Source: Ganoderma boninense
Lineage: Eukaryota; Basidiomycota; Agaricomycetes; Polyporales; Polyporaceae
Length of the DNA stretch: 64,000 bases
Assembly (NCBI GenBank): GCA_002900995.3
Contig: CM035312.1
Location: 124,001-188,000, forward strand
Reading direction: 5' to 3'
Translations under genes and position numbers: made by a program
Notes under the pieces: model-generated
Seen by the model: the letters and a program-made list of their open reading frames with translations, nothing else
Database searches by the model: none
Told to the model about the DNA's origin: nothing
Shown: positions 35,418-58,834 of the stretch, in pieces
Position numbering within the stretch: position 1 is the stretch's first letter
Layout of the letters: each line of letters starts with the position of its first letter

Positions 35418-36318
35418 CCTCCTAGACGATATAGGTTAGAATGGTGAGGTCGACGCGCATCAATCGCGTCGAAAGGCACTTACCAATTCTCTGAAGACAT
35501 AATGATCGCGCGGCCGACGGGCGTACTGATGAGAAGATACGACTGCATGCGTGGCATTGTCAAGGCCTGTCCTCTGATGTACTTTAATTATCATACCTTT
35601 TGACACTCGGATGGCCTGATGACAACAAGTACTAGTCGCGAATACGGGGGCTCAATACGGGCCAGAGAGTGGGAAGTGGTGCTGCGGGAGCCGTGCTCAG
35701 CGACCGGCCATCAGGCATGGAATACTTATCCATACCTCTAGCAGGGATTTTTCCCCTGCTGCAGCACTCGCCTAGGATCGAAGGATCGTTCCGGGGGATG
35801 CGTGTAGTCGACTAAGAGCTTAGTCGACCCTAGATCATGACAGACTTGGAGCGTTGTAAGTATTGATGGAGTGCCAGCGCGGCACCCTAGATGCCTAATT
35901 TGACCTTTCACACAATGTTAGCCGTATTATTTCCATGTAAAATGTGTCAACACATCCACGTGCATGGGGTATCTAGCCTTTCGGGGCTCAAGGCACTACG
36001 TGTGCTGCAACGTGGTGGTTGCAAATCAAATTGCCCACACCGCAGTAAGTATTCCTGGGGGGCTTCTCCGGAAGCTGTGTCGCACTCTGCATTGGTTCGG
36101 TCATTCCAATTATCGTGCCCGCGCGGACGCGTGGCCAGCTTTTATGACAATGTAACTATTTTTGGTAGACGTTGGGTGCAACATAACGTTTACCATGCCG
36201 ATAAGAGAAGATATGCTAACCCGATTCCTTCACCAGTGGATCCAGGAGCAATTCGACTAAGAACAGAGCGCCCGCACCCTCGTCCGGCTTTGCACGTGAA
36301 TGACAGCTTACAGTCACA
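35418..36318. other. Intergenic between two mobile modules
   Basis: No gene supported. Contains a short palindrome at 35807-35828: 10-bp arms GTCGACTAAG and CTTAGTCGAC with a 2-bp spacer. Confidence 0.5.
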
Positions 36319-36839
36319 TGCTATCGTCGTCGCGGCGAGACACCCCATCCTCGGCCGTGGAACTACTGACGACGTCGGAGTTGCATGTCGCCATGACGCC
36401 ATGACGACTGTACACCAGTAGTTACCCATATTGTTAATAATATAGCTACTGTACAGGCCAAAGCATTGTGTAAAAAGAGGGCTCATTATATATAGTGTAA
36501 TACAGTGGGCAGCTATTAACAATGATGGCGGGGCAGACAATTAATCATTGTTAACAAAGCATTTACAATGGGGGAGCATTGTTAAACCCCCCTGCCCATT
36601 ATTATTGACCGCTTTTGGAGCTATTATGATTGATTGTTAACCCGGTGGTGCTTTCATTGTTAATTGGTTGTTAATTAGGCTGGCAGAGGTTGTTAATCCA
36701 TTGTTAATCCTTGCGGGAGCCTAAATCAAGCCAATGTTAATCATTGTGAACTGTCTGGGTGGTCGGGCACCCCGGGGATGCATTGTTAATAGATTGTTAT
36801 TGCTGTGGGCGCGCAGATGGCTCGCGCGGGTGGTCGGGC
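36319..36839 (+). repeat. Left 521-bp inverted repeat with TTGTTAA motif array
   Basis: Matches 57578-57058 on the other strand over its whole length. The outermost ~110 bp is CpG-rich. The rest is AT-rich and carries ten copies of TTGTTAA in either orientation plus one near match, including a self-complementary TTGTTAACAA. Such clustered short motifs resemble subterminal transposase-binding sites. Confidence 0.9.
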
Positions 36840-37235
36840 ACGCGGGCTCTCGGGTGCGCGGTCGCGCAGGTGTTCAGGCAGTCGCGCCGGTATGCGGGCG
36901 GTCGTGCAGGTATGCGGGCGGTTGGGCAGTCGGGTGCGTGGTCAGGCGGCGGGGCGCACGGGCGATCGGGAATGCAGGCGGTCGCGCAGGTGTTCAGGCA
37001 GTCGCGCCGGTATGCGGGCGGTCGTGTAGGTATGCGGGCGGTCGTGTAGGTATGCGGGCGGGCGGGCGCACGGGCGATCGGGCATGCAGGCGGTCGCACG
37101 GGTGTTTGGGCGGTTGGGTGTATACGCAGGCAGTCGGGTGCGTCGTCGCGCGGTCGGGTGGTTGCGCGGTCCAGCAGTCAGGTACGGGTGCGCGGACAGG
37201 CGGGCGGGCGGGCAGGCGGGTGGACAGTCAGGCGC
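36840..37235 (+). repeat. 20-bp minisatellite, left copy
   Basis: About 20 imperfect units of 20 bp around gtatgcgggcggtcgtgcag and gtgttcaggcagtcgcgccg, directly inside the left inverted repeat. Open frames here (Gly/Arg/Cys-rich) are by-products of the repeat. Confidence 0.85.
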
Positions 37236-37676
37236 GTAGCCACTCGGGACAGCAGGTTATTGAAGTGGGAGATTTGCGGGGACATGGGTATGAGCGGTTC
37301 GCACAAAGTGGTTCGGACGAGCATGCGGGCACGCAGATTCGCAGTGTGCGGGTAGGCGGACTATGCCACTGCCTAGCGCCGCGCGGAGCATGCCTGATAC
37401 ACGGGCAGTGCGCAGGTCGGGGTGGCCACAGTCCGCCCATTAGGGCGGGCGGCAGGTGAAGCCAAGGGGGCGGTGCGCACTGGTGGGCGGGAAACTCGGT
37501 GTTAACGGCATTGTGAATCTTGTGGGCGGCCTGCGGGCAGCTCAGAATCATTATTAATTGTTGTTACTCTTGCAAGGCTGACAGGCGGAAGTAGACAAAC
37601 AGCAGGTGTGCGCAAACAGTGAATCTTCGCAACACACATGTGATACATGATCTACGTTGCTATTACAATGGAGGGA
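37236..37676. other. Non-coding internal sequence
   Basis: G-rich sequence fading out of the minisatellite, then 3' flank of the orphan gene. No gene seen. Confidence 0.4.
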
Positions 37677-40568
37677 CTACACCAGCCGCGCACGCTTCTG
37701 ACCTTCTAAGTCACCTTCTACCTGTTCGAAGGGTCGTTTCTCCCCAGTACCAAGCTGCCTGACTGCCAGCTGCATTACCCACACCATCTCTGACACAGCG
37801 TCAAGGGCATCATCCAAGGGCTCATCATTCTCGCTCGCAGCCCAGAGCCACCAAGACAGACTGATCAGAGCGAGAAACATACCATTTGGACCCGCCTTCC
37901 AGAGTGTTTTCCACTCGGCGTGATCATCCGGTTCAACCCGCAGCAACGGCCACCCCTCCGAGTCTCCATTCCAACGGCACTGGGGCTGCATGGATGTCCA
38001 CCACAGCATCCATGCAGGACCAAGAGTGGTTGGATCGATCTCCGGTAGCTTTGCGTAACTGCGATGGACCTTCATCCATTGGGCGATAACCTCCGGGCGG
38101 CCCTCGGTCGGGAGCCGTTCATCACGCTTCTAGTGAACGATGAGCCTCCTAAGCGCGATACACAAAAGCTTTCGCATGAGAACTAACCTGCGTATTGCCA
38201 GGATACCCCATGCGCAGCTCAAAGACTTGCCAAAGTTCCACGAGCTCGCAGAACGATTGCCCGCCACCCTCAATCAACGAGAAGAACTTGAGGGCGTCCG
38301 CGACATAGTCAGGCGCATCCTTACTAATAATCGTGAACGGGATGTTGCCATTGGACGGCGAGGACTTGCCGGAGGCATTGCCATCGAGAGACGGACCCGC
38401 ACGCGAGCCTTCGATCGTGAACGCGGGCGAACGACGAGTCGCGATTGCAGCGGAAGCATCGGCCGAGACCGCGGGCGAGGTGTGCGTCACAAGCCCAGAC
38501 GAAGGGTGCGTCGCCAGCCCAGCTGAGGTGCCGTTAGTGGTGGCAAGCGTCGAGGAGTCGGCCTGCGAGACCACTGGTGTGGCTTGGATACCGCCGGACG
38601 CGTTGAAACTGTCAGGGAGGGCGTGCGACGCGAGAACAGGGGCGTCGGACGTGGGTGCGGGGGTTTGTATAGCAGGAACGCAGCTTGGGAGCGGGGTGGA
38701 AGGAGTGGGAGAGGCTGTAGCGTCGGGGCGTAAGTTCGAAGTCGCAGACTCGGACATCGTTCCACCCAAAGTAGCACAGCCACCGGGCACCGAGTTCTCG
38801 GCGGTCGAGTCGTCGGTGACACTGGCGACTGAGGTGTTGGCTGCGACAGTTGGGCCGACAGTTGGGGCGATAGGGTGAGCCAGAGTTGCGGCGGTGGAGG
38901 ATGCTTGGGAGCGCGTAATGCGGGGTGGCCCCTGCGTGGGAGCCTGAGGAGGCTTCTTCGGAGTGCGTGGGGCTCGAGGCTTCTTCGTCTGGAGGAGTTT
39001 GCCCGCATTGGCGAGACCCAGCTGCTCGAACATCTCCTTGTTTTCCTTCAGTCTCCGAGTCCTCTCTTCGTCGTATGACAGAACGGCCGGCGCCCCTGCC
39101 CTTTCCTTCCCCTTCCCCGCGGACTTCAAGTTCGCGACACGGTGCTGTTCGCCGGATGAGTCGCCACTCCCCTGGGCCCCCGACGGACTTGTCGACCCAG
39201 ACTCTGACGCGGCGGGTTCTGAATCTGCAACCCTTGGTGCGTGCGGCGTATCCACCCCCGCCGACTCGGCACTTGTCGTCGTGTCAGCAGGAGCAGGAGG
39301 AGAGGCTGCGGGAGCACGAGGAGAGGCTGCGGGGCGTTCCGACTCAGCAAGGGTCGCAGATGTCGACGAAGCAGTCGCCTCGACTGGCTCAGGAACGCCG
39401 TGGTACGAGTCGGTAAGTCTCTTGATCACATCCGCGGCTATGCCAGGGACAGCATGAGCTCGTACTAAGGCGTCGAGGGAGGCAGGAAAACTCACGAAAA
39501 CAACTCGTCATGAACTTATTGAAGGCGTCTTGAATACCCGGCCAGCCCTCCGTCGCCTCGCCAAAATCGTACCCGAGGTTGTGCGTGCGGCCTGAGTGCA
39601 GGCTAGTCGAGGACGGTGAGCACCTTAAGCTCGCTACGTAGTCGGAAGGGAGATACTTACAAAATTGCCGTCAGCTTGCCAGTATCTGGTCATGGACCAC
39701 CGACCATGATCGTCCCTGTCCAACCCATTTGCTTATCGACCTGATCCAATAGGTTGGTGAGGACTTTTGGAAGCCCTTCTATCGCACTTGAATGCGGTGA
39801 GCATGGATAGATAATTGATCTCGGTGGCACTGTGATCAACTTACCTCTGAACCTTTTTAGCCCGTTTCTGCCGCTCGAGCACCCCCGGGTCGGCATTCGG
39901 ATCGAGGAACATGTCTAAACCTGTCAGGTCAGAAGCCTTGTTCTTGTTGCGATACTCTTCGACCGTTGCCTTGACCTCGTCGCTCGCCTCGTTGAGCAGA
40001 TTTTTTGCCGCCTCGATGGAGAACGAAAGCGGATCTCGCGGCTTCTCCTCCCCCCCATCGACCTTCACTTGATACGTCTCCGCAAGCAAACGCGCCGCCG
40101 TCGTGACCTCCTCGTTGTGCAAGGCCCAGTAAGCTTGGTACGGATGCATCTTGCCCGATTTCTTGGGCGCGAAGTTGAAGCCTCCGCCGTTAGTGCCAGA
40201 GCCGCCTTCCTGCTCCGGATTTTGGCCGATTCGGTGATTGTAGAACCATGTCATTATTTGCTAGTACGGCATGCGCGGGAGGTAAGTGTACAGGAGGGAT
40301 ACGACATCATTTTGGGAGTGCTTACGTCCTTCCGCTTCTGAACAGTCAACGGCTTCCCATCCTCTGGACTCTTCTTCGGGTCACGCGGTGTGATCGTATC
40401 GCTGTTGCTGGTGAACTTCGAGCCTGGATAGAAGGTGTCAAAGTACTCTTGCCATACGGTCTTCTTGAAGTCGGGTATCGTTCCCTTCGACTGCGCAGAG
40501 CGGAAATCAGGGAGTTTTTCGTCGAGCCACTCAAGTTCAGTGGTATCGGCCCATCCTGGACGTGGCAT
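37677..40568 (-). CDS. Orphan protein of the large inverted-repeat element
   Basis: Multi-exon gene. Exon 1 (40326-40568) encodes MPRPGWADTTELEWLDEKL and the following basic segment, and splices at KRKD to an exon (39845-40260) with TWFYNHRIGQ, MHPYQAYWALHNE and a charged helical stretch. A small exon (GLPKVLTNLLDQVDKQMGW) follows. The large exon 38149-39495 is Ala/Ser/Pro/Thr-rich and disordered, ending FCELVELWQVFELRMGYPG. The last exon (37677-38075) encodes AWMLWWTSMQPQCRW and NGMFLALISLSWWLWA. The N-terminal aromatic spacing (W..W.. with basic residues) suggests a DNA- or protein-binding helical domain, but I cannot name one. Its position opposite the KDZ transposase suggests an element-borne accessory gene. 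Confidence 0.65.
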
Positions 40569-41484
40569 GGCGGCGGTGCGGAGCGCAGGTGGGAAGGATG
40601 CGAGATGACTTGGAGATGAGGAGACTGGCTGTCACGACGTGTGCGGATGGAAAGGAGGCTGGAGTGTTTGGCCGGCACACTGCCAGCAGCGAAACCTCCC
40701 CACCTTGTCAATAATGTGGTATGTCCTCCCCCGTTGCGACTTCAATGATGTCCTGACTCATCCGTGCAACGTGTGCACCGATTCTAGGGCCCAAATGTGT
40801 TAATGCCACCATCAGCTTCAAAGGGGCTGTCTCCGACGCCATCTCCCCCTGTCGCCGCTCGCTCATTCCGGCTGCCCGCCTGCAAGCATTCTCCGTAGGG
40901 AGTGTTTGCATGTACTGTAAGGGTACAGTACCTCGTTTAAAATTCCTCTTGACCCCCTTCTGAATAAAGAAATTGTCTCTTGTGTTTGCAGATGTCTTGC
41001 ACTACGGTTGCGATGCTGGCAGCGGAGCTGCCAGTGTCTCAGGAATGATGATCAAGAGCAACAAAGCCTCGATCCCGGCCAAGCCTCATGATCACGACCC
41101 CCCCTCCTTTCCGGTGAGCCCCAACCACTGATGTGACTAGCGCGATGCATTCGGCCACGGACCGCGCCTCCATTCCTACGCGCTCTGACAATTTGGCCTT
41201 TGAAGCTCGTAGATTACCTGCACCCGGGCCCACCACCTACCACCAGACTTTAAACTTCGTTGACTTTGGATTTAGTGTACTTACTATGTAGTATTACTAT
41301 GGATATTGCTTAATTCTTCGGATCGGACACCAGGCTATTCTCTTCCGAGTCAGCTTGGTGTCGGTTTGCTTCGACTCGCAGTTCCTTGGGACACCCTTGA
41401 ATTGTCCCGCTTAGATCTAGTAACAATGTTGATATATTATTATACACTTTGAGAGTGTACACCCAGGTTGATCTATCAGACAGG
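40569..41484. other. 5' flank of the orphan gene, no other gene
   Basis: Probably half of the original divergent intergenic region between the orphan gene and the KDZ transposase, now split by the hAT insertion. No supported ORF. Confidence 0.4.
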
Positions 41485-41492
41485 CAGTTATG
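41485..41492. repeat. Left target-site duplication of the hAT element
   Basis: CAGTTATG, identical in direct orientation to 50150-50157. Confidence 0.9.
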
Positions 41493-41846
41493 TAAGGCTG
41501 AACGTAGGTCCGGGTCACCCCGCGAATCAACCTGGGCCGCCCCGGCGCCTAACCCGTAGGTTACCGATCCGTAGGTACAGGTACCCAGGCCGTGAATCAG
41601 CTGCGGATCTGGATCAGAGGTCCAGGATTCCCTCAACCTGTATAGGTTACCTGCATTTTGGAACCTTGTTTTCACACATTCTAACGGCAGTTTAGGGCAT
41701 GAGAACATAAGATCTATATTTGTGGACATATTGGCCTTTAACAGTGCGCATATACAATGATACAGAGGTTCGGTTCGCATTTGGGCGTAGGGCGCTAAGT
41801 AGGCTAGGTCGGCGGCAGCTACACAGACATATTGGCACACCAGTAT

Positions 41847-43200
41847 CTACAGATCGAGATCGGACATGTCATCGCCGTCCTCGTTGACTACAAAACCGCA
41901 ACGTATCAGTTCCTCTTCCTCTTCATCGGAGTCAGGCTCCTCAGAGGAGTCGGAATAGTACTGGTCATCAGAGGAATCGGAAACGGTACGGAGAGTAGGC
42001 ATGCTATCAGCGGAATCGTATCCGGAGTCATACGCGCTAACGTCAGCGACGTCTACAGCTCCTGTCACGGATGGGGAACCAGGAGATGGGATCGGGTGCT
42101 CTGATGAAGCTTCGCCGGGAGGCGCGCCGGTCCGCAAAGTCGCCTACAGCCAAAATCAGCTAGGTGTACAGGTAACGATGCACTTGGAACTGATGTACTT
42201 GCCTCGGGGATAAGCACGCACATGTCGCAAAGGGTAGAGCGCGAGGTCGCGCTTGACGCACCGCCCAACAGCCGCCTGGGCGAGGTCGACAAGGCCGCTG
42301 GTGAAGCTTTCGTAAAAGTTGGACCTCAAGTTGACGCGCGCATGTTGGCCGATGGTGAACGCGCGGTAGATGCAGGCGAGGTTGAGGAGGACCCTGCGGT
42401 CGAAGGGGGTAGCTTTCGATTTGGCGAGGAATGATCGCTGAAGGCGAACGATCCAGCGGTCCCAGAAGGCGCGCGATGGCGCAGACTGAGACCGGCCGAT
42501 CGGGAGACGCATCTGCGATGTAAGGATGCCACATGAGCTGTTGTCTTGCCGCTCGCGCCGAGAACGAAGACGTACGGTGAGTTCAGTCGACGGGGTATCG
42601 ACGGTGAGAAGCAAGTGTTGAATCCTCGCGGTCGGAACCTTCGCGTTCGAAGAGGCGGACGGGATGTGAAAGAAAAAGCGGACAGTTGGCGGGGACATTT
42701 GTGGGTGTGACGAGAGAAGGATGCGAGAGCGCGGGATGTGTTCGGCGTGGAGGGACACGACGATGTGGAGGGCAGACTCGCGAGCGCAATATAGGAATGT
42801 TGTGGCGAGAAGCGCCCGCAGTCTAGGAACGGTGGTCGTGGTTAGCATGCACGGGACCGAAACCACGAGATGCGAAGTCCATATGGTGAAAACAAAGAGA
42901 CTCACCGAATTGAGCTGCTAGGATGACTGAGGCCGCCTCGTTGCGAGTCCTGACTTGGGATAGTAGGGAGCGTGGCGGACTTGGAGACAGGCCATCGGCC
43001 AATGTACAGGCGTACATGACGAGACTTGCATGGCGTCGCGGAATCGCGGTGTCGCGACGACATGTGCAATGAGTACTGCGGAGGGGGTGGACGGCCGTGG
43101 ATGGAGCGCAGTGGTCCTTTGGGATGCGGGGACGGGGTTGCGTCGGAACACGTTTCTTGCGACTTCCGAGGTATGAACAAAAAGGACGCACTCGAAAGAA
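41847..43200 (-). CDS. Second gene of the hAT element, unknown function
   Basis: The last exon (41847-42137) encodes an acidic Ser/Asp-rich tail (SDSSDDQYYSDSSEEPDSDE) ending MSDLDL. Upstream on the minus strand a long frame (about 42160-42830) encodes TVRFFFHIPSASSN, RAFWDRWIVRLQRSFLAKSK and VLLNLACIYRAFTIGQHARVN, with protein-like composition. A 5' exon (RNEAASVILAAQFG, donor gtgagt near 42905) is plausible, though I could not make every junction keep frame. No domain recognised. The start is uncertain. It is divergent from the transposase, a common arrangement for two-gene hAT elements. Confidence 0.45.
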
Positions 43201-43925
43201 AACGTGGCGCGATTGGGCGAGCCTCGTGGCAATGGTATCGGAAGGGTAGGCGTTGGCCTGGTGGACAGAGAGCGAGCGGAATGGGGAGGAATTGAGCGCT
43301 TCGAGGCGAGATCAAGATCGTAGCGGACGTCGATGCAGTTAGGCGCTGTTGGGGAAAGCGGGATATAGTACAAGCGGAACGAGGGTTTTGAAGGGGACGA
43401 AGAGGGGATGGGTCGCAGTGGAGAGAGTGCAATGGTCAAATACAAGCTTGCGCGCTCAGCGTTCCTTCTTCGCAGGTACACGACTGTGATGCTCTGTGAA
43501 GGGAAGCGAAGAAGCTGCTCGTGTAGACGCCGGTCGCTTTCCACCCCCTCCTCGTCACCACCATCCTCCCCCCGCCACACTGCTGCACCAACCCATTTCG
43601 GTCGCAGCGTGTGCTTCGCGGAGCTACTATTTTGTCAGCCCATGAGTCACCCTCGAGTCCCCCACAACCCTTCGCCCTGCAATGAGGCTATCCGGACGCA
43701 CTAACGCAAGCAAACGTGGCCATCGAGCGTATGGGGAGAGTTGCGTGAGCGAATGTGAGTCCCGCGCGGAGTCCCGTATGGTTTTTGAATTTGAAACATC
43801 CGTGCTAATTCTTGTCTTGGGATAGGTTCCGTGTTGTTTTGGCGGACTCGGCGGGAGCAACGCGCGAGCAGACCTGCGGGAGCTCGGTTTCAGGCAGAAC
43901 GCAAGCAGTCGATGGGTGCGGGACA

Positions 43926-43933
43926 TATAAAAG
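43926..43933 (+). promoter_or_regulatory. TATA box of the hAT transposase
   Basis: tataaaag, 109 bp upstream of the transposase start codon, followed by a C/T-rich leader. Confidence 0.55.
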
Positions 43934-44041
43934 GGTGGCCTTGTGAGGTGTGTGGACTCAGCCTTTCTGTCTGTTTTGGCTCTAACATTTAGTTTCTGAA
44001 TCGCCACCCTCTCTTGTCCTCTCTCCCCCCTTCTAATCGCC

Positions 44042-47000
44042 ATGTCTTCCTCCGGTACCACGCGCAAACGTCGTGTCTCGCGTCGTTCCTCCGACCAGTT
44101 CCCCGGTCTCCCCTTTGAGCCCGTGAAGAAACCTCGCGAGGGATCTTCTGAGCCTCCCGACTCTCCCACCGACCGCGACGCTGCCGCCGAGTCCGACGAC
44201 GACGTCTTTGTCCCCTCCGCAGAACCAGCGGCTTCCGAGCTCTCTTCCGCCTCCGGTGGCGAGCTCGACGACGATGACGGTGACAGCGACGCAGTGGGAG
44301 CCGTCGTCGCGCGCACGCGAGCGGTGGCCGTTCGCAACCGTGCTGGCGGTCCCTCTAAGTGGGACGCGGATGCGAAGCGGGCTCGGTACAACGAGAAATA
44401 CGGCGAGATGACAGCTGACGCTGCTCTCGGTAAGTTTGCGCTCTTCTGGATCAGACTTGCAGCGCGCTGATACACTTTGTTTCCCAGCCAAGTTGGCCAA
44501 GGCGTGGCGCTCGCCGGCGTACAATCATTTCAAGTACCCGGTCGTCGTGTTGGACGAAGACGGGGTCGTGTATCATCGTTTTGTTTGCAAAGAGTAAACA
44601 GCGTCCTTTCTTTGCTGTGCCAATACGCGCTGATTATTCTTTAGTCATCCTAGTGTCTATCTCGATCGTATCGCCCACGAGGACTCGACCAGTAACCTCC
44701 TGCGCCATGTGCGCACCTGCGAGCCGCCCGACACCCCGGAATCTGAATCTCTTGCGGCGTACGCCTCCGGAGCGACTTACTCGAAGGCGAAGTTTCGGTA
44801 CCTCCTTGCGCTTTGGTGCGCGCGGCGCCACCGCCCCTTCAGCATGGTAGAGGACCCCGAATTCCGTCGCATTGTGCGTATGCTCTACGCCCGCGCGGAG
44901 ACGCCTTCCCGCATCGCCGTGTCCCGCGATATTCAGCATCTTCTGGAGCACGCGCGCAAGCATCTCGTGGCCCGCCTGGGGGTATGTGCCAATTTTTTTG
45001 CCGATGCTTTGGCTGCCATCTTGATGAGCGTGAGCGCATCAGGCTCTCCCGTGCAAGGTACACCTCTGCGTGGACGGCTGGACATCGCCGAATTTCATGT
45101 CGTTCCTGGGCGTTACGGCCCATTGGGGCGAGGGCGCCGAGCTCCAGCACGTAACGCTAGATTTCATCAAGTAAGTCACCGGATCGTGTCTCGGTTGCAT
45201 ACATGAGTTCGCTAACATCAAACGTGCTTCCCATAGGTTGAACAAAGCGCACACGGGGGTGTACCTCGCGGAGAAGCTCGTGAAGTCCCTCACCGACTAC
45301 GGTATCGAGAAGAAGGTACGACTGTCATCCGCTCGATACAAGTACGGATGACATACTGACTTCGGCTTATTGGCAGGTAATGGCCATCACGTGCGACAAT
45401 GCCGAGAACAACCAGACGATGATCGACGAGATGGCCATCCGGATTCCGGGATACCGCGGCCACGAGATGCGCGTGCGCTGCTTTGGGCATGTCCTCAACT
45501 TGATCGTCAAGGTACGATCAGATCCAATCGACGCCGTCATCCTCCCGCACAAGCTGTGGCACTCACGTCAGGCCTTGCCCGCCCTCAGGCAATCTTATCT
45601 CGCTTCTCGCGCACGCGCAAAGGGAAGAAGAATTCGAAGACGCCACACACCGAGTTCGATGGGGTTCTTGCCGACCTGGACGCGGACGAAGATGTTCTCG
45701 CTGAGTATGAGGCTGAGGCTGGCCTGGTTCCAGATGAAGGGGATGACGGAGAGCAGACCGACGAGGCCCGTGATGAAGCCGATGACACGATCATTGACGA
45801 CATCGAGCACGCGGACACCAGCACAGTTCAGGTGTCCAAAGAGGAACTGGTGGCGGGGAAGCAGGCACTCGAAAAGGCAAGTGCAGTCATTCGACTCTGT
45901 CCCATCCGTGCCCCTCTCATCCTCTTCGTGCAGATCATGGTGCTATCTAGCCATGTATTCTGCCGCCCCCAGATCCGCGCGGCTCTGGCGCGCTTGGCAA
46001 AGGAGGGAAACCTCAAGAGCCAGGTGCTAATCCGCCCCGTGCGAACCCGCTGGAACACCGTCACCCATAGTCTCGGCCGCGCGATCGACATGCAAGAAGT
46101 GCTCGACGCCCTCTGCGACATGCACCAATTTAACACCGTGGGCGGTGTCCGCCTTCGCCGCTTCATCCTAGATGTTGAGCAATGGACAGTTATCCGAGAG
46201 CTCTACGAACTGCTTTACGTACGTCACCCTTTTGAATGGATTTTGACGTTTCCGAGCTCACGCGATGCCGCCCTTAGCCGTTTTTGTACGCCACCAACAA
46301 AATGTCCACAAACAGACACGCGCTGGTGCACGAGGTGATTCCCTACATGGACATCCTCACCGAGCACCTCGCTCGTTTCAAGCAGGACCCCGTGCTCAAG
46401 AAGATCGTTCGGTCAGCTGCCGAGCGGGGCATTGAAGTCATCAACCGGTACTATTCGAAGACAGACCAAAGTGTTGTCTACCGGATCGCGATGAGTACGC
46501 CATCAATTTGATGACATCATGTATATCGCTAACGCTGCCTCTTTCTGGCAGTCCTCCATCCCGCATACAAGATGCAGTACTTCGCAGATCACGAGTGGCC
46601 GGCTGAATGGGTGGACGAGGCGCTCCGACTCGTGCGCGAGGAATGGACCAAGTACTACAAGCCCGCCGCCATGGTCAAGGGCGAAGACGACGCGGACGCG
46701 GGCGACTCCGAATCCCCCGCCCAGTCCCAGTCCTCTAGCGCTCCCAAACGTCGCCCCGGCCACTTGAGCGCTCGCGCCACTTTTGACGTGAGTAGTCCGC
46801 CCGTCTCCTTATGTCACTATAGGCATACATACTGACTACTTGAACATGTTCCAGAGCACTCGGAAGATGTTCGCGTCGACCGCGCAGGCCCTTTCTACCA
46901 AGGATGCCCTCGAGGAGTACCTAGCGACCCCACCCACGAAGTCCATCACCGATCCGATCGGCTTCTGGGAACTACACCTCAAGGCCTCGAAGAATGATCC

Positions 47001-47727
47001 GGGCGCGCAGGCCTTGGGTCGGATGGCGATCAACTTCCTAACAGTCCCTGGTAAGCCAGATTGCTCTTTGGCAAGCGCGTCCAGCCGGACCCGGGATCCA
47101 TCTCCATCTTCTAACGCTATCATTTACTCAGCCACGTCCACTGATGCTGAGCGTGCATTTTCCCGAGGAGGTCTCACTGTCTCTCGACTCCGCCACTCCC
47201 TAGGCGACGCGAGTATCCGCGCGAGCGCGCTCCTGGGGTCCTGGGCTCGAGTCGATGGCCTAGTTGACGAGGCAGACGCCGTCGACCTCCTCAAGACGAA
47301 GATGCGAGAAGCTCGCGGCCGTGATGACGACCACGATGTTGCGCCCGCCGCCCGCGAGAAGCGGGCGTCCGCTGCCCCGCCCGTCAAGATAAAGCAGGAG
47401 CCTGGTATGCCGCCTGTCAAGGTCAAGCAGGAGCCTCTCTCGGATGACGACGCCCGATCCGTCTCCCACGCGTCGACCTCCAAGGGCAAGGGCCTGGCCA
47501 CTGTCGCGAAGCCTCGTCCCGCGGCGAAAGCGGGCCTCGCCACTCCTGGCTCCTCGTCCTCCGCTTTGAAGGTCGCTACTGTGCCCGCACCTATCCGTCG
47601 CAAGACCTCGAAGCCCAACATCACTGCTCCCCGCGGCGCGGACAAGAAGAACAAGCGCGCCCGTCGCGTGCCGCTCAGTTCAGAGACCATCGAGATCTCG
47701 TCCGACGATGCCGAGGAGGAGGACTAG
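44042..47727 (+). CDS. hAT transposase (BED finger, RNase H core, hATC dimerisation domain)
   Basis: Cut-and-paste transposase of the enclosing element. Exon 1 (44042-44429) gives a basic then acidic N-terminus (MSSSGTTRKRRVSRRSS). A BED-type zinc finger follows, with CKD then EDSTSNLLRHVRTC (44590-44735). The catalytic region includes VHLCVDGWTSPN (about 45055-45090, needs splicing), VMAITCDNAENNQTM with its conserved Asp (45380-45420), and GHEMRVRCFGHVLNLIVK. RTRWNTV and LLYPFLYATNKMS follow. The hATC region at the 3' end contains YLATPP, DPIGFWEL and the diagnostic ATSTDAERAFSRGGLTVSRLR. The C-terminal ~150 residues are Lys/Pro-rich with two repeated VKQEPG-like segments and an acidic end. 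Multiple short introns. No stop found in the joined frame, so it may be active. Confidence 0.9.
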
Positions 47728-50149
47728 GTGCCGGGCATTCATATGGCCGCTTAATCATAAGGTAAACTCCCACTTTCCGCTTCCCTTCGTTGTATTCTCA
47801 GCATCCAACCCATGTCCTCTCGATGTCGCGTCGTTGCATTGCCGTTTCCGCCCACGCTACCCCCTCCTACTCTGTCGTGATCGCCTCCCTGCCCCGTCCA
47901 TGTACGACATTGCATCAGTATGCCTATCCTTTTTCCGTTCCTGCTCGTCTAGAAACTACGTACAGCGCGCGAGCGCAATCTGTTCATGTACTAGTTAGTT
48001 CAATTGTGAATGCGATAACCTATCGCAAACGTTTCTCGGCGCGCCAAGGTCACTCCAAGTCTGCCGCTGTGCAGCGCCGTCTCCATCCAAAACTATCTCC
48101 GCGGTGAGATAGTTAACTTTGCAACAAACCACGGGGCCAAAGTCTTATGCACCCAGCCCTGAAAATCGGAAGATTTTCAGGGATGGGTGATGATTTTCAG
48201 GCCTCGTGCGAAGATCTTAGGGCCGCACCGCACGCGAATTGCCGCCGACTGATTGGTCTCCTTCTACCCCCTCCACTCGAATTCATCGCCATACCTCATA
48301 CCACCCCTCACTATCCAACGAGCACTCCCCTTCAAACACGGACAGTCGATACCCCGCAAAACCCTTGAACACGAGCTCACGGAGGCACGGTTGGAGGAGA
48401 CGCGGTGACTCAGAGACCTCGCGCAATCCAAGTAAGTCTGTTCCACCCTCTGAGCCGAAGATGAGCCAAACGGTCAGTCTTCGAGCTCGTAACCTCATCG
48501 CGTTCCCCAGCGCTCCACCCCCCCCCTCCCTGCTCCTCTTATCATCCCACGCCCTGCCGTATGTCGAACGGCAGCAAATCGGACGACTGCTAAGCGTCGA
48601 CGGGCGCAGTCGCGCTACGCCCTTCGCTGCCCACTCTCCTACTGGTCGCTATCACGACCGTCGCCACTCCTCCGCGTCAAGCTCGTACTACGACAGAACA
48701 ATCACCGCCCTCTTCAGCACCCATCAAATTCATGCTCGCATGCCCTATCCTCCCGCGGCGACAGGCCCTCGATGGTAAGTCATCCGCCCGAGTCTTCTGG
48801 GCCCACGACGCTGACTCTCTGACCCGCTCCGCCTCCTTCACCACACATCGATGTCCAGTGCCCACGCAATCGCGTCAACCGCCCCGCCCGCGGGAATCTG
48901 CCCTGAGACGACACGTCTGCTGCCATCATCGCCGGGTCGCCGCCCCTACGTTAAGACGGGACCAAGACAGCGCCCTCCTTCTGTCACCTTTCATCGACCA
49001 TCTCACCTGCCGACCAAGCTCGCCAGCAGCCAGCCCAACGTACTCCACATCCGAGGGCTCGACCACCACCGACACTCTGCCAAGCTGTCGGGGCAGAATG
49101 GCGTCCGCTCATCGTCGAGCTCGAACCCCCCGCCTGTCGCTCCTCATCCCATCCAGCTGAGTGCCAACTATTCTCCCATTGACCCATCCTGCTGCCATGC
49201 TCGCCTCCTGCTGCCGTGCTCGGTGGCCCCATGCACCCATTCCCGTCCCGCCAATCGCCCGTTGTGTTCACCGCACTGGCAACGGTGATCTGAGTTATCG
49301 CCTCCGTTGTCGGCGGCTCCGCCTGCCCGCCCTCCGAAGATCAGCATCCAGTGCCCCGACGCCGTGAACCGCCCATCAGAAACCAGAACCGCATGTTGCA
49401 GCCAGCCATGATGCTGGGCCTGCTGGCTAAAGTTTTCTATCCGCCGGCGGGGAACTTCGCGAGCCCCATCTTAGCTACCCCCACCCAGTCTCGCCTTGTC
49501 CAGTACCGCCCCGCACAGTGTCGGCCCTGCATTATCAACAACTAGCATACTTGTTTTGTATTGTACACGGAGTTAAATGTGATGAGTGACGTCTCGCGAG
49601 CCGAGACCATGTTTGCGTCTCTGCGGTATGCTGGCGCGCCTCTGCTTCGATGACAGGCGCTTACCTCTCCGGATATCACGGCTTATCACGGCAATGTCAA
49701 AAAGCGAGCTGCGCCTTTGATATACCCACTGGAGGCTCAGTCTGCATTGCCTGCCATGGTGTACAGTATAGATCCAATCGTGATCGGGTCTCTAACGTTG
49801 TATGCGTGCAAAACCCATGCTTGTATGCTCTATAAGTAATGTAAATGTTTATCAACATGGGTAGCAATCCTCTCAAGATAGTGGTCAACGGTCCGGCACT
49901 CTCAATGCGTGCATTGAACTTCACTTGAGCATAAAACATGCACACTATAGGTCTCCTATGGCTTATAACCTGCAACCTGCAATAGGTTTAGGTCAATATC
50001 TGGGTGGCCTGGATTCTATAGGTTTGAGAGCCGTAGGTTTAGGTGAAATTTCAGGTCGACCTAAACAGATCCCAATCATGGTTGAGAATTTGTGCAAACT
50101 TATAGGTTCAGCTCCCAATCATCTGTAGGTCGACCTACGTTCAGCCTTA
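47728..50149. other. Non-coding right part of the hAT element
   Basis: 2.4 kb without a convincing gene. The C/T-rich stretch at 48240-49540 has only short fortuitous frames. Near the right end (49965-50135) are repeated AGGT motifs and a 14-bp perfect palindrome, GTAGGTCGACCTAC, at 50125-50138. Confidence 0.55.
48157..48182. repeat. 11-bp hairpin
   Basis: CCCTGAAAATC and its complement around the loop ggaa. A further copy of gattttcag follows 12 bp later. Lies in the hAT non-coding part. Confidence 0.7.
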
Positions 50150-50157
50150 CAGTTATG
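50150..50157. repeat. Right target-site duplication of the hAT element
   Basis: CAGTTATG, the partner of 41485-41492. Confidence 0.9.
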
Positions 50158-50694
50158 GGATGTCGAACACTCCCAAGATTCCAGCGCTGTCCTTCGGGAC
50201 AAGCTCACGTATTCCGCGGCCGAGTCAAGAAAGGGACGGGGGCTTAACTTTCAAGCATCTAATAAAAGGACTGACACTCGCAAGGTGGCTAACCTCATGA
50301 ATTTACCAGAGCATGTGTGTCGTAAAGGTTAGCCATGCGGTGAGACTTGCAGTGTGCTATGTTGCCGAGACTTGAAGGCATGAGCGCTGCAAAGCCCAAA
50401 ATGAACGTTGCAAGTAAAAACCGCTGCGGCGCGCACAGTACCGTACCATGAATCAACCTTTCTGGGGCCTCCGAATGGGGGAAAAATGTGCATTTGATGT
50501 ATTATGAGCTGTTAAATACCGAATCTGCTCCCCAAACAGCCTCAATGTTCGAGGAACGAGCTCGGTAGTAAAATCTATGTTCGAGGAAAGGCGCTTAGCA
50601 GCCAATTCCTCGAGCGCTTCTCGAGCATCTGCAGTGCGTTCCGGATTTGGATTTGCGCGCCCAAGCCTGTTTGTTCTTCTCTAGCTTCTTGCTC
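50158..50694. other. Promoter-side flank of the KDZ gene
   Basis: 537 bp between the hAT right end and the KDZ start codon. No ORF supported. It includes the other half of the pre-insertion divergent promoter region. Confidence 0.4.
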
Positions 50695-53600
50695 ATGGCC
50701 AGGAATGATAAACGCAAGGGCAACGCATCGACTAAGACTTCAAAAAAGGCCCGAGTCAGCATAGTCGAAGTCCCTGCCCATCCTGATCCCCGAGATCCTG
50801 CCGTCCGCCCGGTTGGTTCAAGCTCTACGCTTCCGAGTCGTGAAGTCAAGTCCGTAGTCGTCGAGAACATATCGTTCTCAGGGAATGCATCGCGACGATA
50901 TAGCCGGCACACATCGATTCACAACGTCGTCCCGAACCCTGCCGAACAAGTGTTTCGGCCTCTCGAAGAAATCGAGGCTGCGTCGATTGACGATGCCGGC
51001 GCATCGATCCTCGATGACTCGCTTCCAATACCAGAGGCCGAAACACTCGAGCATGACGCATCGACGTGCCTCAAGCCCAAAGGTTCCCGCCAGCGTCCAG
51101 AGCTTCGTGCAGGAGTGAGTTTCCCAATGCATGACCGGCCCGGCTTGAAGTTATTATGGCTGACGCTAGCTACAGAACAAGCTTCGCGACTGGCTCCCAT
51201 CCCGAGAAGACTTCCTAGAGGAGCTCCTGTGTTTTGGCGGAGCCGAAGAGGATCAGGACGACGGCCAGTCTCTCTGCAGTCTCTGTCACATCAAGGAAGC
51301 CACCTACCGGTGTCAAGACTGCTTCTCGAGGGCTCTCAAATGTGATGACTGCCTTCTCGCCAGCCACGCCGAGCATCCTCTCCACCGCATTGAGGTTAGT
51401 TGGTCCGGTCCGGCCATGACAATCTTCAATTGAATGACCCGTGTTCTCTAATGGCAGCGCTGGGATGGCGAAGCTTTCGGCAAGACATCGTTACGCGCCC
51501 TCGGGCTGCAAATTGCTCTCGGCCACCCGGCAGGAGTGTCGTGTTTGAGTCCGGCTCCAAATACACGCCGCGTAGTTATCTGCGATCTGAACGGTATCCA
51601 TGAGGTGGACATCCGCTTTTGCGAGTGCCTCGGCTCAGACTGGACCCTCACGCCACAATGGAAGCAGCTCATCCGAGTTGGATGGTTTCCCGCCACAACA
51701 CGGGCCCCCGCCACCGCGTTTACGTTCGGGCTCCTCAAGTTCTTTCAGGAACTTAATTTCCAGGGGAAGACCAATCTCTACGATTTCTGGAAGACAATCG
51801 AACGAATCACGGATAACTCCGGAGGTCGAGACGTCCTAGTGTGTACCATTTCATCCGAGCATGCTCGTTCTATGTCTATTCAGCACAAACTGATGTTCCT
51901 TGACTACAGAATCGTTACAAACAACTCTCTCATGCTATGCGGCTCTGGCGGCATCTTGTCATGCTCAAGCGCTTCGGACGCGCGCACGATCCGGCGGGAG
52001 CGGGTGGCACGAAGCCGGGCGAGTTGGTTGTGGAATGCGCAGCTTGCCCGCATCCGGACAAGAACCTCCCGGCTAATTGGGAGCATCAGCAAAAGCGCAA
52101 AAATATCGCCCAACTTTGCGCGATCATGGGTGCGTATGGAACCCTGAAAATACCATGCACAAATTCCAGAACGGGGTATGGTGCTCTTCTGCTTTGTGAC
52201 GCAAGGCAATGTCACCCTTGGGACAGGCGCCGCCATGCAATGTCAGACAATACCAGGCAATCCTCCCAATATCTCTCGCAGATTGTCTTGGCTTGGCGGG
52301 ATTGCCTTGAATTGGGGAGATTGCCGCCGGAGGCATAGTAGAGGATGGCGGCATATTGTGGATAAATAGCTCTTAATATCACTATTATTCACTCATGCAG
52401 ACGGACGCTTGTAAGGAGTGCAAGTAGAGAAGTTTATTGTGCACAACACTAGGACAGACACATACAGATAGCTGGTGATAAACAAAGCTGGACCAGTTGA
52501 CAGGAATAATGCCTGTCCTACGAGAGGCGGGAGATTTATGGGAGAGGTGGTAGATACGCGCGCTGGTGTACATTCTTCAAGCCGTAGTAAGGTTGACGGA
52601 ATGTGGAGAAGGACAATAGTGATCATGCTCACAGATGGCGATGGGCAAGAGCAGTGACGGTCAAAGGTACATTAAAGGGCGAGGCAGGACGGAAAATGAT
52701 TAGTCAAATAGTCCTATAGGCCGTAAAATAAGTGGCTCACCATTTATGCGCATATACCCACATATAATTAGGCCATCTTGTCGCCAAATGCGACGGTAAT
52801 CACGGCAAGTACATGGAGTGAGTGAAACCAACACGTTGGGCCTGGTGACGGTGGACGCACCAGAATCGGATGCGCATCTTGCAGCGCACCAGAAGATTGT
52901 AAAGATCGGCAGATATATGCACAATAAAATGGCATCTCGTACGAGTATAAGGATCGGAAGCACTCACAGTGCATATGAAATCCCGCTGATTCTCACCAGT
53001 ATGCAACCAGAATCTCCGGTGGTCTTCTATCTTGGGCAGTGGGATGGTGTAGGGGTGAGCGACGGAGCTGGCATAGATAGAGATCGAGAATTCGGACTCG
53101 AAGCTTGGACACGGTGCGACGTTGGTGAGAGATAGCGCAGCACATGAGGGCAATAAAGTGGGGAAGAGCCAGGAGGAGGGAGAACGGGGGCGGAAGGAGA
53201 GTGCGTGGTCCGTTGCCGGACATGATGGTACAAAACAAAGAGGAATTGAGCACCTGTTGAGAACGTCTTCTTGCGAGGACGAGAAGATGAGCAACGCGAT
53301 GATCACGTGTGCACCCTAAACTGGTGTCGAGACGCTCACCTACTTCTGTTGACCTTCGACGCAGACTCGCTTGCCATCTCTATGAGTTTTCCTCTCCATG
53401 GTAGTCCCCACCACCTGGGACTCGGATCTGTCTGGCTCACCACTCCCGTCCAACTTGTTCTATTCAAGTACGTAGCACGGCAACTTAGACTTGCGTAGAG
53501 GTGTCCGAGAATGCAACACTTACATATAATTGGCTTATTAGGCCATCCCATGCCGAATATTGCGCAGGATCGCAGGGAATTGCACGATCAGACCATTCAC

Positions 53601-56158
53601 GTCGAGTCTTGAGCGCTCGTACATACCAAGGCAAGAAGGGACGCTCCGGGCAATACTCGCAAGCCTGGCCGCGATTTTCGGAGTTTTGCTGATGAGAATG
53701 CTCCGCCTCATCTCAGGTACGTGTATCTCGCGTTTAGAATCACATTGATTCGAGTTTAGTCTGATATTGCATAGGTGGTTGTACACCCTTTTCTTGATGA
53801 TGGACGCAAACTTTCGTGCACGGTGTAAGGACCGTGGGTTCGACGACGTTGAGCTCGCCCCTGGTTGGGCTTATTATGTCGAAGAGAATGCTTATCTGGC
53901 TCACGTTTTGATGCGCGCCGATGAGAAAGATCTTGTACGTGGACATACGGCGGTATCTTTCCAGGGGTCTGCTTACATTCAACCGCTTAGGAAAACACCT
54001 GTTCCGCGGAACATAACGCGATTCGTCAAGCCAGCTTCCATCGTGAAGGCTATATCGCATCAGGTGTTGGGGCGATCTTGTGCGCACGCCACGCCCTTGT
54101 CCGGAAGAATGGAGCCGGCGACTTGCAACAAGGGGAAAGGTAAGTTGAATCCCATGTGCCTGTGATCGGCGGAATTGCTCATGTAATCAATCAGACAAGC
54201 CAACATGGACTACCTGTTCTTTTCGACTCTTTACCTGAGCTTGATGCTCATCATCCTCATCTCGTACGACATTGTATGCCAGTGGGCTGTGCACCTGTTC
54301 GCCCGCATGATCAAATGGTTTCCCGAAGACATGCACCTCGACCAATCAAAGGTGACTGCGCGATTTGCCATCCCGAAGAAGCACTTCCGGGTGCACGGCG
54401 GATCACCGCATTCACAATATTCTTTCAATTACCTTCCTTATGTTGGGCGCACATATGGAGAGCGCATCGAGACCCATTGGTCTCATGTAAATCCGCTCGC
54501 ACTCAGCACACGGGAAATGAGTAGCGGAATGCGCCACGAGGTGATGAATGACAACTGGGGTGCATGGAATTGGCAAAAGACGCTCGAATTTGGTATGTCA
54601 TTTTCATTTCTCATTTGACTATGTGATCTATTATTTACTAGGCATTCGCAGGGATGTTTCTTCTACGGTCCTTGGAAGAAGCGCACGAAATGAAAATCAA
54701 GCAACGCCGCATCTTTACGGAGTACAACGCCACATTCAGTCCGGACGTTGTCAAGGTGTGGGAAGATATGGTGGACGCGTGGAACCGGGATCACTCTCAG
54801 CCCGATCCCTACGAGGAGCCGAGCACTGGTACGTCATGCCGCTCCTTGTCTTGCGGAGTTAAAAATCCCTGACATGCCTCCGATAGCGATCTCTATGAGC
54901 ATGGTAAAATTAGAGCTGGCGCAGCAGGAAGCTGTCGAAGCTGCACAGGGCCAACTTCCAGCGCATGAAACCACACCTGCCGTCTTCATTCAGGTTGGCC
55001 TGGAATTAGAGGAGCAACAGTATGTGTTCAGTATACTCAGACACACTGTCCGAAGCACTGATTTTTTCTAGGCGCGGACTCCGGCAGCGCACGTCCACTA
55101 GCCGCAGCATTTCCGATCTCGCAGATCTGCAATCCAAGCGAAACGTTCTCGCTCGTCGAATCGAATCTTGGCGCGGTATCCAGGAGGTACACATGCCCCT
55201 GGTTGTGCAGCTCCGGGCCACAGAGCCGGAGCGTCCAATCAGCTCACCTCCGATTAAGCCGGAAGACATCAACCTCTGGCTGCCGTCCTCAATTCCGCCC
55301 TCACACGCATTCATAACGTCTTTCTCAGCACTCCGTGCCAAAGAACAACGCCTGCGACTAGCGCAGATGTCCGATAGCCTCGAAGATATCCGTCGAATCC
55401 GGCGCATTCTTGCCTCCATCTCGGAATTCAAGAGGCTGAATGTCTCCGGCACTGGGCAGCGCGCCGTCACGCGAACACTTGGTGTTTACGAGCGGTTCCT
55501 GACGAAGCAGGAGCGCTGTGCTGAGCGCTATCGGGCTGCTCGCTCCGCAATGCTGGTGCTTGATCCTGACGGGGATTGGAAGGCAACGTACCAGGTGCTC
55601 CGGAAGACCGATCTCCGTGGGCCACGTCGTGATGACGATGAAGGCATCCCAAGCGAAGGCCGCTACGAAATCAGCTGGATTTGGCTGACTCCCCGTTCTG
55701 GACAGGAACCTGGCGAACAGACCGGTGGCGCAACAGCAGGAGAATTCACCGAGACAATGCGCGCAGAGTGGGCACGAGCGAAAGCGCGGGTGGAGAGGTG
55801 GGCCGAGGAGGAAACTTTGCTGGTCGAGGAGATGCGGCGCGTCCTTGCCTACTTGGAGTGGAAGGCTCGGTGGTGGCGGCTCCAGCCGGGGCGGCGCACG
55901 GGCGTCAGCGCCCGCTTCAAACGAGGATTGGCTGCGTATGCTGAGAAGGAGGCCCGGGTATTTGAAGGTCTAGCCCGGAGATCAGCAGCCTACTGGGTGA
56001 ACTACTTGAAGACCATTGGTCAGGGCGAATTGCCCCCGTGGCTCCTTCCGTACGCTGCATACGCCAAAAAGATCCGAGCCCGCCGGTTTATGGGAAATGG
56101 AGAGGAGGATTTGGATGAGGAGATAGATGAGGAGTCTTCGGACGAGGAGGATAGCTGA
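50695..56158 (+). CDS. KDZ transposase with CxC2-like cysteine cluster
   Basis: DDE transposase, probably of the large inverted-repeat element. Starts MARNDKRKGNASTK. Exon 1 ends at 51114 and splices in phase 0 to NKLRDWLPSREDFLEELL. The CxC2-type cluster is CSLCHIKEATYRCQDCFSRA then LKCDDCLLASH (51275-51370). After GEAFGKTSLRALGLQIALGH and a helical region comes a second Cys pair (VECAACPHPDKNLPANW, about 52040). The coding frame is then interrupted until 53775. It resumes with the first catalytic Asp in LYTLFLMMDANFR, the second in LISYDIVCQW (54262) and the Glu in YGERIETHWSHVNP (54455). MRHEVMNDNWGAWNWQKT and a long coiled-coil C-terminus with an acidic end (EEIDEESSDEEDS) follow. The catalytic triad is present; whether the 1.65-kb gap is spliced out decides if it is functional. 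Confidence 0.85.
52132..53774. other. 1.65-kb interruption of the KDZ coding sequence (long intron or insertion)
   Basis: A donor-like gtgcgtatgg follows the last sensible codons at about 52131. The coding frame restarts after gcatag at 53774 with the expected next residues (RWLYTLF). Other introns in this gene are under about 80 bp. The interval has no gene I can support. The string acatataatt plus nearby taggccat occurs near both 52758 and 53522, hinting at an internal repeat. Confidence 0.5.
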
Positions 56159-56274
56159 ATACTAGTAATGTGGAAAGGATATTAGTGCTCCTGACTTTTG
56201 TCTGCCTATAGCGCGAATGGTCTCTATCTATTCAAAACACGACTACTACCCCGAGCTTGGAGCAGCTGGCGCAC

Positions 56275-57057
56275 CTGCGAACATGCACACCAATGCACAC
56301 CCTCCTGCCCGAGCACCCGCCCTCCCGCGCGATTGCTCGCCCGCCCGCGCGAGTGCTCGCCCACACAACTGTCGAGACGCCCGAGCACCCGCCCGCCCGA
56401 ACACCCTCCCGACCACCCGCTCGCAGGACAGTCGACCGCCCACCTGCACGATCGTGCACCCACTGGTGATGCCTGTCCGCACGACCACCCCTACGCGCGA
56501 CCGTCCGCATACCCGACCGACTGCCGGCTGGCCCGACTGCCCATCCACCCGCGCTTGACTGCGCAACCGCCCGCAGAGAGCATGCGTGCCAGACCGACCG
56601 CACGAGCGTGCAACCCGACGCACGCCTGACCACCCGCACGCCCGACCGCCCGCACGCCTGACCGACCGCATGCCAGACCAACTGCCTGACTGCACGACTG
56701 CGCGCGCACGACCACCTGCATGCCTCATCGCACGACCGTGCGCGCTCAACTGCCCGCACGCCTGACCGCCTGCATGGCCGTGCAGCCACCAACGACGCCT
56801 GACCGTGCGACCGCCCGCCCTCCGGCCGCGCGCTGCCCGCACGCTGCCTGCCCGCCACCCGTGCACCCGAGAGCCCGCGTGCCCGGCCGCCCGCGCGAGC
56901 CATCCGTGCGACTGCCCGCATACCCGCGCGACTGCCCGCATACCCGCGCGACTGCCCGCATACCCGCGCGACTGCCCGCATACCCGCGCGACTGCCGGCA
57001 CACCCGCGCGACTGCCGGCACAACCGCACGACCGCCCGCGCGCCCGAGAGCCCGCGC
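56275..57057 (-). repeat. 20-bp minisatellite, right copy (about 39 units)
   Basis: The same family as the left array but inverted and about twice as long. It includes at least four exact consecutive copies of actgcccgcatacccgcgcg at 56929-57000. It starts about 115 bp after the KDZ stop codon. Confidence 0.85.
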
Positions 57058-57578
57058 GCCCGACCACCCGCGCGAGCCATCTGCGCGCCCACAGCAATAA
57101 CAATCTATTAACAATGCATCCCCGGGGTGCCCGACCACCCAGACAGTTCACAATGATTAACATTGGCTTGATTTAGGCTCCCGCAAGGATTAACAATGGA
57201 TTAACAACCTCTGCCAGCCTAATTAACAACCAATTAACAATGAAAGCACCACCGGGTTAACAATCAATCATAATAGCTCCAAAAGCGGTCAATAATAATG
57301 GGCAGGGGGGTTTAACAATGCTCCCCCATTGTAAATGCTTTGTTAACAATGATTAATTGTCTGCCCCGCCATCATTGTTAATAGCTGCCCACTGTATTAC
57401 ACTATATATAATGAGCCCTCTTTTTACACAATGCTTTGGCCTGTACAGTAGCTATATTATTAACAATATGGGTAACTACTGGTGTACAGTCGTCATGGCG
57501 TCATGGCGACATGCAACTCCGACGTCGTCAGTAGTTCCACGGCCGAGGATGGGGTGTCTCGCCGCGACGACGATAGCA
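57058..57578 (-). repeat. Right 521-bp inverted repeat with TTGTTAA motif array
   Basis: Reverse complement of 36319-36839, no gap or difference found on inspection. A 75-codon open frame shared by both ends (MSAPPSLLIAAHC on the reading toward the outside) comes from this identity. Confidence 0.9.
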
Positions 57579-57667
57579 CGTACGCCGCCCGCGTTCTGGA
57601 GAACACCACCTGTAATGAAACACATCACACTGCGCAGTCAAGTAACAGATGCGGCGCGCGAGAGGCC

Positions 57668-58514
57668 TCATTGCATGATGTCCACTCCACGCGGGGTAGC
57701 CATGTACATACTCAACGTCTTCAGCTTGAACTCGACCCGGTACCCCTCGCCCACTTTAACGCGCACACAGCGCATCTCCATGCGCACTACGTCACCCCCC
57801 ACCAGCTCGTTGACACTAAGTGCTGCAACTTTGTGCCGCACCTGCTCACCACCGCTTCGGTCGTACACGTTGAGCAGTCTTGAGCGCGGGCCGGCCGACT
57901 CACGTCGTGCAGTGATGCCGTAACTTGTAACTTGAGCGACAGATCAATAACGCATCCGCGTCCAAACGGCGTCACGACTCACCACCGCCTGGGTTAACCA
58001 TGTCGTTTATGCGTCGCAGCCTGTCCGCATCCGCAGCGCTAAAAAGCTCGACGAGGACCGAAAGCGTGGTCGACTTGTATCGCTTCAGAACCAACTGGAA
58101 ACCAGCGAGGCTGCCAAACGCGACTATGACAACGGCCCGCGGTTTGGCACCAGGAGTGGAGAGTGTGTTGCTCTGGCTCCAAATCACGTCGTCGGGAATG
58201 TCGCGGAGATGGCAGAAGGGAGGCCCGTCGCCCAGGGGCTCATGGATGAGCTTGACGATGGCGCTACGCTCCTCGTTAGTGTACCAATGGATGGGAACGA
58301 GCAAAGTATCATCTTACCGCGAGTGGTCGTGCAAAGCGAAATCGAGTGCGAAGAGCGACTGCTGACCTTCTTCTGCGTCGGACTCAGCGACGCCAGTTGA
58401 TTTGTCCTCGTCATCTTCACTCTGCCCGTCGGAGAGGGAGATGGTGCCCAGGTCTTCAGCTCCAGAACCATTTGCCGACTCGGAGCGGAGGATGCGCTTT
58501 CGCTTGGGGGGCAT
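57668..58514 (-). CDS. Orphan protein with a basic-acidic N-terminus
   Basis: Exon 1 starts MPPKRKRILRSESANGSG and is acidic thereafter, with a donor after DHS. The next exon (AIVKLIHEPLGDGPPFCHL, PDDVIWSQSN, RAVVIVAFGSLAGFQLVLKR, then a Leu-rich helical end) closes at a gtgagt near 57980. The last exon encodes VYDRSGGEQVRHKVAALSV and VRVKVGEGYRVEFKLKTLS, strand-rich with an MQ stop at 57668. One of the junctions does not keep frame in my reading, so an exon boundary is uncertain or the gene is damaged. No domain recognised. It begins only ~90 bp outside the right inverted repeat, pointing away from it. Confidence 0.55.
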
Positions 58515-58834
58515 GGCGCGGGCAGCGGGATGGGGTGCGGATGAGGGGAGGGCGGGCTAGACAAAAGATGCAGGTTCACAGAGGGCCCCGAGTTCTAGTA
58601 AGGGCAGGAAAGAGAGGCGCGGCCCGAGATGATCCCGCCCCGGCGAGAGTCAGACGATCTAATGCCTGATGGTCTCCGTACTCAGTGGACTAGCGAGTCA
58701 GGGTCCAGTCGGGTTATCCGTGACCTGACGTGACAATGACGACCCCCGAGCTGTTGTCTGCGTTTTTGGGGGCAAAACGCCTTGCCTATTACGTGCGAGT
58801 ACATTAAACAAACGAGCAAGGCTCATGATGGACC

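Follow-up and report, generated by a model that had tools for sequence, protein, structure and literature searches.

The window, a 64-kb stretch of Ganoderma boninense DNA, contains a two-gene transposon that is a distinct variant within the known KDZ superfamily. Its CxC2-KDZ transposase gene (50695-56158, + strand) was modeled by hand as 10 exons encoding 1115 aa with no internal stop. The product matches PF18758 (2.9e-32) and the CxC2 domain (4.8e-38), and these matches confirm the CxC2-type KDZ transposase that an earlier note on this DNA had placed inside the right end. Four acidic residues are conserved among 86 homologs (D425 in 79, D543 in 78, and E607 and E610 in 81 each) and are candidate catalytic residues. 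The closest relatives of the transposase, among 7999 candidates scored, come from Ganoderma, Earliella, Daedaleopsis, Lentinus, and Trametes. Intron 4 (52134-53774, + strand) is 1641 bp long and contains dispersed-repeat DNA, pieces of which recur elsewhere in the genome at 71-85%; a search of this insert for inverted termini found none. Related elements were located in the same genome by a transposase exon search, and six of them were read at length (C22, C12, C11a, C11b, C15, and C11c).

The partner gene lies on the opposite strand (approximate span 37680-40631, − strand) and was delimited by exon homology using tblastn. It had been regarded as an orphan, a description that no longer fits: tblastn matches are present in 6/6 relatives, and the C22 copy has two Ganoderma homologs, P0001 and P0002, one of which is labelled "transporter" and sits on a contig whose stated length equals that of the contig carrying the closest transposase homolog, among 7999 candidates scored. 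A partner profile search over 7999 scored candidates returned the same two proteins alone. Neither P0001 nor P0002 contains a Pfam family over the cut-off, and a search with the partner protein gave no PDB match. The window copy carries an in-frame TGA (39690-39692, − strand) in a conserved stretch that the C22 and C12 copies read through, which suggests that it is probably not fully functional.

Between the two genes lies a nested hAT-type transposon (41493-50149, + strand; 8657 bp) with short inverted termini, TAAGGCTGAACGTAGGTC ends, and an 8-bp target duplication, CAGTTATG. A protein spliced by eye from this transposon matches Dimer_Tnp_hAT (PF05699, E 1e-6). Among the matches listed, its first 1308 bp recur at 100% at C2:4347649-4348955 and C2:1844930-1846236, which suggests that the nested hAT probably moved recently. 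Once the hAT is set aside, 12.4 kb of KDZ element remains, some of which is extra intron-4 DNA; the six relatives are 8.5-11.6 kb long. The locus had previously been read as a simple 21-kb element, which is at odds with the 8.66-kb hAT, its 8-bp duplication, and the 1641-bp intron 4 inside it.

The inverted ends of the locus, first described as 521 bp long and near-perfect, are exact reverse complements in pairwise alignment (36319-36839 and 57058-57578; 521 bp, 0 differences), and the inverted repeat goes on at 99% over 549 bp (36316-36864 and 57033-57581). A search of the assembly (55.6 Mb, 74 contigs; very common words skipped) with the 521-bp unit, which had been proposed as a check, returned just the two paired window copies among the matches listed. 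The terminal inverted repeats proper are 427 bp long and perfect. The left one (36413-36839, + strand) begins CACCAGTAGTTACC and holds ATTGTTAA arrays, and the right one (57058-57484, − strand) has the end CTACTGGTG.

Inward of both ends lies the same 20-bp minisatellite, as the earlier note had observed, with 10.2 degenerate copies at 71% on the left (36858-37061, + strand) and 6.8 copies at 93% on the right (56904-57039, + strand). The motif arrays it described exceed chance: ATTGTTAA occurs 8 times within 420 bp of the true terminus on its inner side, whereas no 8-mer reached more than 4 copies in any of 200 shuffles. Repeat arrays across the family share an ATTGT core and consist of ATTGTTAA in the window, ATTGTTAC in C22 and C12, ATTGTCAG in C11a, and ATTGTATA in C11c. 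C11b contains a weaker TTGTTA-type signal in its repeats, and the C15 repeat is interrupted by a gap. These ATTGT-core arrays are candidate transposase binding sites. The layered end structure had been called unusual; because the relatives read at length also have identical ends and inner arrays, the layering is not special to the window copy.

The termini of the six relatives share the motif CACC[AT]GT[AG]GTT[AT]CC. The window copy of this family terminus is located at 36413 and 57484, 94 bp inside positions 36319 and 57578, which the earlier note had taken for the element ends. Two genome-wide pattern searches with the terminal motif CAC[CA]... gave 21 end-pairs including the window. The first returned 28 matches, 24 of which formed 12 pairs, and the four unpaired matches (C2:4026176, C2:4159637, C7:1725746, and a third C11b end at 2538557) were left out. 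The second, in which up to 3 mismatches were allowed, returned 38 matches, comprising 12 already known, 18 that formed 9 pairs, and 8 single. The motif read backwards served as a control and gave 5 matches in each search. The pairings C2:4026176/4159637 (133 kb apart) and C2:4148713/4159637 were inspected and rejected. Termini are CACC..GGTG in the window and the six relatives, and CACC or CACA in the remaining pairs; the motif by which the pairs were located itself begins CACC.

An exact direct 7-bp target duplication is present in 17/20 pairs other than the window. A search for further copies with the same outer boundary had been suggested, and in these 17 pairs the duplication abuts the inner motif instead; as all 20 pairs were found through that motif, its presence there is not independent evidence. 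C12n has a 6/7 target-duplication match, and C11b and C14n have no target duplication at their ends. None of these three has an overrun, which indicates that other kinds of end damage exist.

The outer 94 bp at one end of the window copy match the reverse complement of those at the other end at every position (94/94), compared with 18-28/94, or about chance level, in the 20 other pairs. The 94-bp sequence has no further match among those listed for the assembly, and its GC content is 0.606 versus 0.438 in the inverted repeat proper. The heptamer TACAGTC, of which the + strand of the window has three copies, abuts the right terminus (57485-57491, + strand), and another copy lies on the left at 36309-36315 (+ strand), 97 bp from the left terminus and 3 bp outside the 94-bp copy. 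The earlier report of no target duplication therefore stands at 36319 and 57578 themselves and fails for the element, which has a 7-bp duplication that is displaced on the left. The intervening DNA (36319-36412, − strand) is an inverted copy of right-flank DNA at 57485-57578; it lies between the left terminus and its duplication. The placement of TACAGTC beside the right terminus and outside the left copy suggests that TACAGTC is most likely the duplication made when the element inserted, and its displacement on the left suggests that the inverted right-flank copy was placed between duplication and terminus later. In the assembly, this apparent overrun footprint is a single case, in 1 of the 21 pairs.

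Our main reading, to which we assign a probability of about 0.72, is that the left end of a two-gene KDZ element was rebuilt from its right end with a 94-bp overshoot into the right flank. A two-gene, Kyakuja-like CxC2 KDZ transposon would have inserted by cut-and-paste with the 7-bp duplication TACAGTC, and at some time was also struck by the hAT. After insertion, the chromosome would have broken at the left terminus, perhaps when the transposase cut one end only. From the left tip, the 3′ end would then have invaded the homologous right inverted repeat, and synthesis would have proceeded outward through the right tip and on through 94 bp of right flank (proposed template 57485-57578, + strand). 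On its release, the new strand would have been joined to the left flank at the target duplication, with about 3 bp between this duplication and the copy. The repair would thereby have given the left end the sequence of the right one, and would have left inverted right flank between the left end and its duplication. The right-to-left direction is taken solely from the target duplication, which is one 7-mer.

The 521-bp repeats could instead be true terminal repeats, in a lineage that acquired an extra 94 bp at each end and carries them along when it moves. The repeat is perfect across the 94 bp, in keeping with such a history, but its outer boundaries lack a 7-bp duplication (left flank ...AGTCACA, right flank CGTACGC...), the matches listed include no further copy of these 94 bp, and their GC is unlike that of the repeat. 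The terminus motif and the duplications, which abut the inner motif in 17/20 other pairs, place the ends 94 bp inward, and the outer boundaries were rejected as termini, this history being very improbable. Also very improbable is an insertion at the center of a pre-existing perfect palindrome. Such a target would provide inverted flanks at once, but the 7-mers abutting the termini are GACTGTA and TACAGTC, which are reverse complements instead of direct copies, whereas those 17 pairs have exact direct duplications. With a direct TACAGTC also present outside the left 94 bp, the palindromic target was rejected.

Ds is a hAT element. In the available part of the report on it, transgenic Arabidopsis Ds ET500 has a 598-bp inverted repeat between one end and the target half-site (PMC1978519). 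Among the accounts compared, this is the nearest published topology to the overrun, with the difference that its extra DNA is described there as coming from the donor T-DNA and not from the current opposite flank. The extra 94 bp in the window might similarly have been brought from an earlier donor site, with the same order of end, inverted extra DNA, and target duplication. Donor DNA is not expected to match the present flank, and since the 94 bp copies the present right flank, which starts with the 7-bp target duplication, an origin from a donor site is quite unlikely. Misassembly, in which the left junction was built from the right one, is unlikely. The assembly has 100-N gaps at C12, C11b, and C15 and an inverted unoccupied-site piece at C12, which speak for such errors, but the window contains no N, the copy ends beside an intact target duplication, and the sequence just outside the copy differs (ACATGC versus ACGTGC).

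The suggestion of looking for empty sites had a mixed outcome. An empty allele of the window's own insertion site was looked for and not found, whereas an unoccupied C12 site and three flank-homologous loci were recovered. The C12 piece (G000:C12:1056853-1058007, L028) is inverted beside the C12 element and cut exactly at its 7-bp duplication; it adjoins a 100-N gap and resembles the other haplotype scaffolded in. The three flank-homologous loci (C26 and C18, which were read, and C6, from match tables) have both flanks without the element. The homologous loci match at about 70-71% over the right flank and contain an unaligned spacer at the site, which is 118 bp in L044 versus 445 bp in the joined window; the L045 homolog matches the left flank only. 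When the 94 bp was compared with two homologous sites, 86 and 297 of 500 shuffles scored as well in the forward orientation, and 448 and 331 of 500 in reverse. These loci do not bear on the direction of copying because their junctions are too diverged.

The left flank contains an 829-aa intronless open reading frame (32946-35435, − strand) with no Pfam match at E<=1. It has 40 matches in the genome, four of them near-full-length at 75-79% with stops inside. The sequence that flanks the KDZ insertion on either side, including 57655-58600, continues in three loci of this open reading frame, which suggests that the KDZ element sits in another repeated, possibly mobile, unit.

The left and right ends of the seven elements, compared over their first 269 bp, are 97.7-100% identical within an element when gaps are ignored. 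Across lineages, identity over this stretch falls to 52-67% with gaps included, except in C15 and C11c, which are one family, and the last transposase exon of the relatives is 47-68% identical to that of the window. This likeness within elements and difference between lineages indicate that the ends evolve together within a lineage. To our knowledge, cut-and-paste transposition has no means of its own to preserve the likeness between an element's two ends. End-to-end copying would account for near-identical ends within an element while lineages differ, and its repetition is the proposed way in which long ends are kept identical. In the window, the perfect identity of the arms would follow from it if copying spanned at least 427 bp inside the tip, and the earlier conclusion of a recent event or ongoing homogenisation is upheld, with 0 differences across 521 bp. 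The near-identical ends could also be inherited in part from few events, and C15/C11c, the sole same-family pair, fits both copying and inheritance.

A broader proposal is offered tentatively and is somewhat doubtful: that the long repeats of KDZ elements are kept identical by routine repair, in which one end is cut and then recopied from its counterpart within that element. The window would then be the first recognised overshoot of this process, with break position, template, direction, and join visible at base level. The literature was searched for a comparable overshoot of end-to-end repair, and the records listed include no such account. Rice transposon excision sites contain foreign segments of 1-123 bp that are attributed to synthesis-dependent strand annealing in the accessible part of the report (PMC4423477). 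Unlike this filler DNA at emptied sites, the window has a retained element whose end would have been rebuilt from the opposite end.

Kyakuja is the closest kin of the window family. Kyakuja-1_LB and -2_LB of Laccaria bicolor are described, in the available sections of a 2025 report, as having 7-bp duplications, CA..TG ends, no terminal inverted repeats, and an encoded TET/JBP (PMC12730594). The window family likewise has a KDZ transposase, a 7-bp target duplication, and CA..TG termini, so that it inserts like Kyakuja, yet it departs from the reported absence of inverted repeats (427 bp, perfect) and has a different partner gene and no TET/JBP. None of the seven family elements contains a TET/JBP gene (0/7). 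Elsewhere in the genome there are 29 TET/JBP matches (22 over the Pfam cut-off), 27 of which are at most 6 kb away from other KDZ matches; TET-bearing KDZ elements thus form a sizeable population separate from the window family. A tree of about 120 aa of the KDZ domain groups the family with one TET/JBP-linked locus, apart from 11 other KDZ loci (support 0.953), and, as it samples 12 loci of the 152 KDZ matches in the genome and no reference Kyakuja protein, it does not settle clade membership.

Other KDZ elements with inverted repeats differ in detail. KDZ1-3 of Cryptococcus neoformans, according to the portion of the report available, are mobile, about 9-11 kb long, and have inverted repeats of 139-241 bp, which are shorter than those of the window family, a CxC1 domain, and duplications of 8 bp (KDZ1) or 4-8 bp (KDZ2 and KDZ3) (PMC12810828). 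Zisupton also belongs to the KDZ superfamily and has terminal inverted repeats, with 8-bp duplications in the corresponding part of its source (PMC12730594). What sets the window family apart as a KDZ lineage is its pairing of Kyakuja-type insertion with inverted repeats that are long and with a partner gene that is conserved but unstudied.

Under the main reading, the window would be a young footprint that ties end identity to end-to-end copying. It offers a search signature, namely inverted flank between an element end and its target duplication, and illustrates how repair overrun can mislead the placement of transposon ends.

Twelve short end-pairs of about 2.6-3.4 kb have related termini, with exact 7-bp duplications in 10 of the 12 (C7:3734225, C8:750749, C8:3653953, C14:383322, C32:18847, C3:1731809, C12:2769442, C14:533182, C5:2662251, C5:3731149, C6:431792, and C6:2310748). 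Judged from their ends, they are probably non-autonomous derivatives. At the C11b locus, three copies of one terminal repeat surround a 100-N gap (G000:C11:2538557-2558528). The duplication TGCTGCG is common to two of these ends, in opposite orientation, and the third abuts CAGAAGG, an arrangement that may reflect either a scaffold misjoin or a transposase-made rearrangement. The window also contains a large GC-rich tandem array with mixed periods of 42-336 bp (25699-26370).
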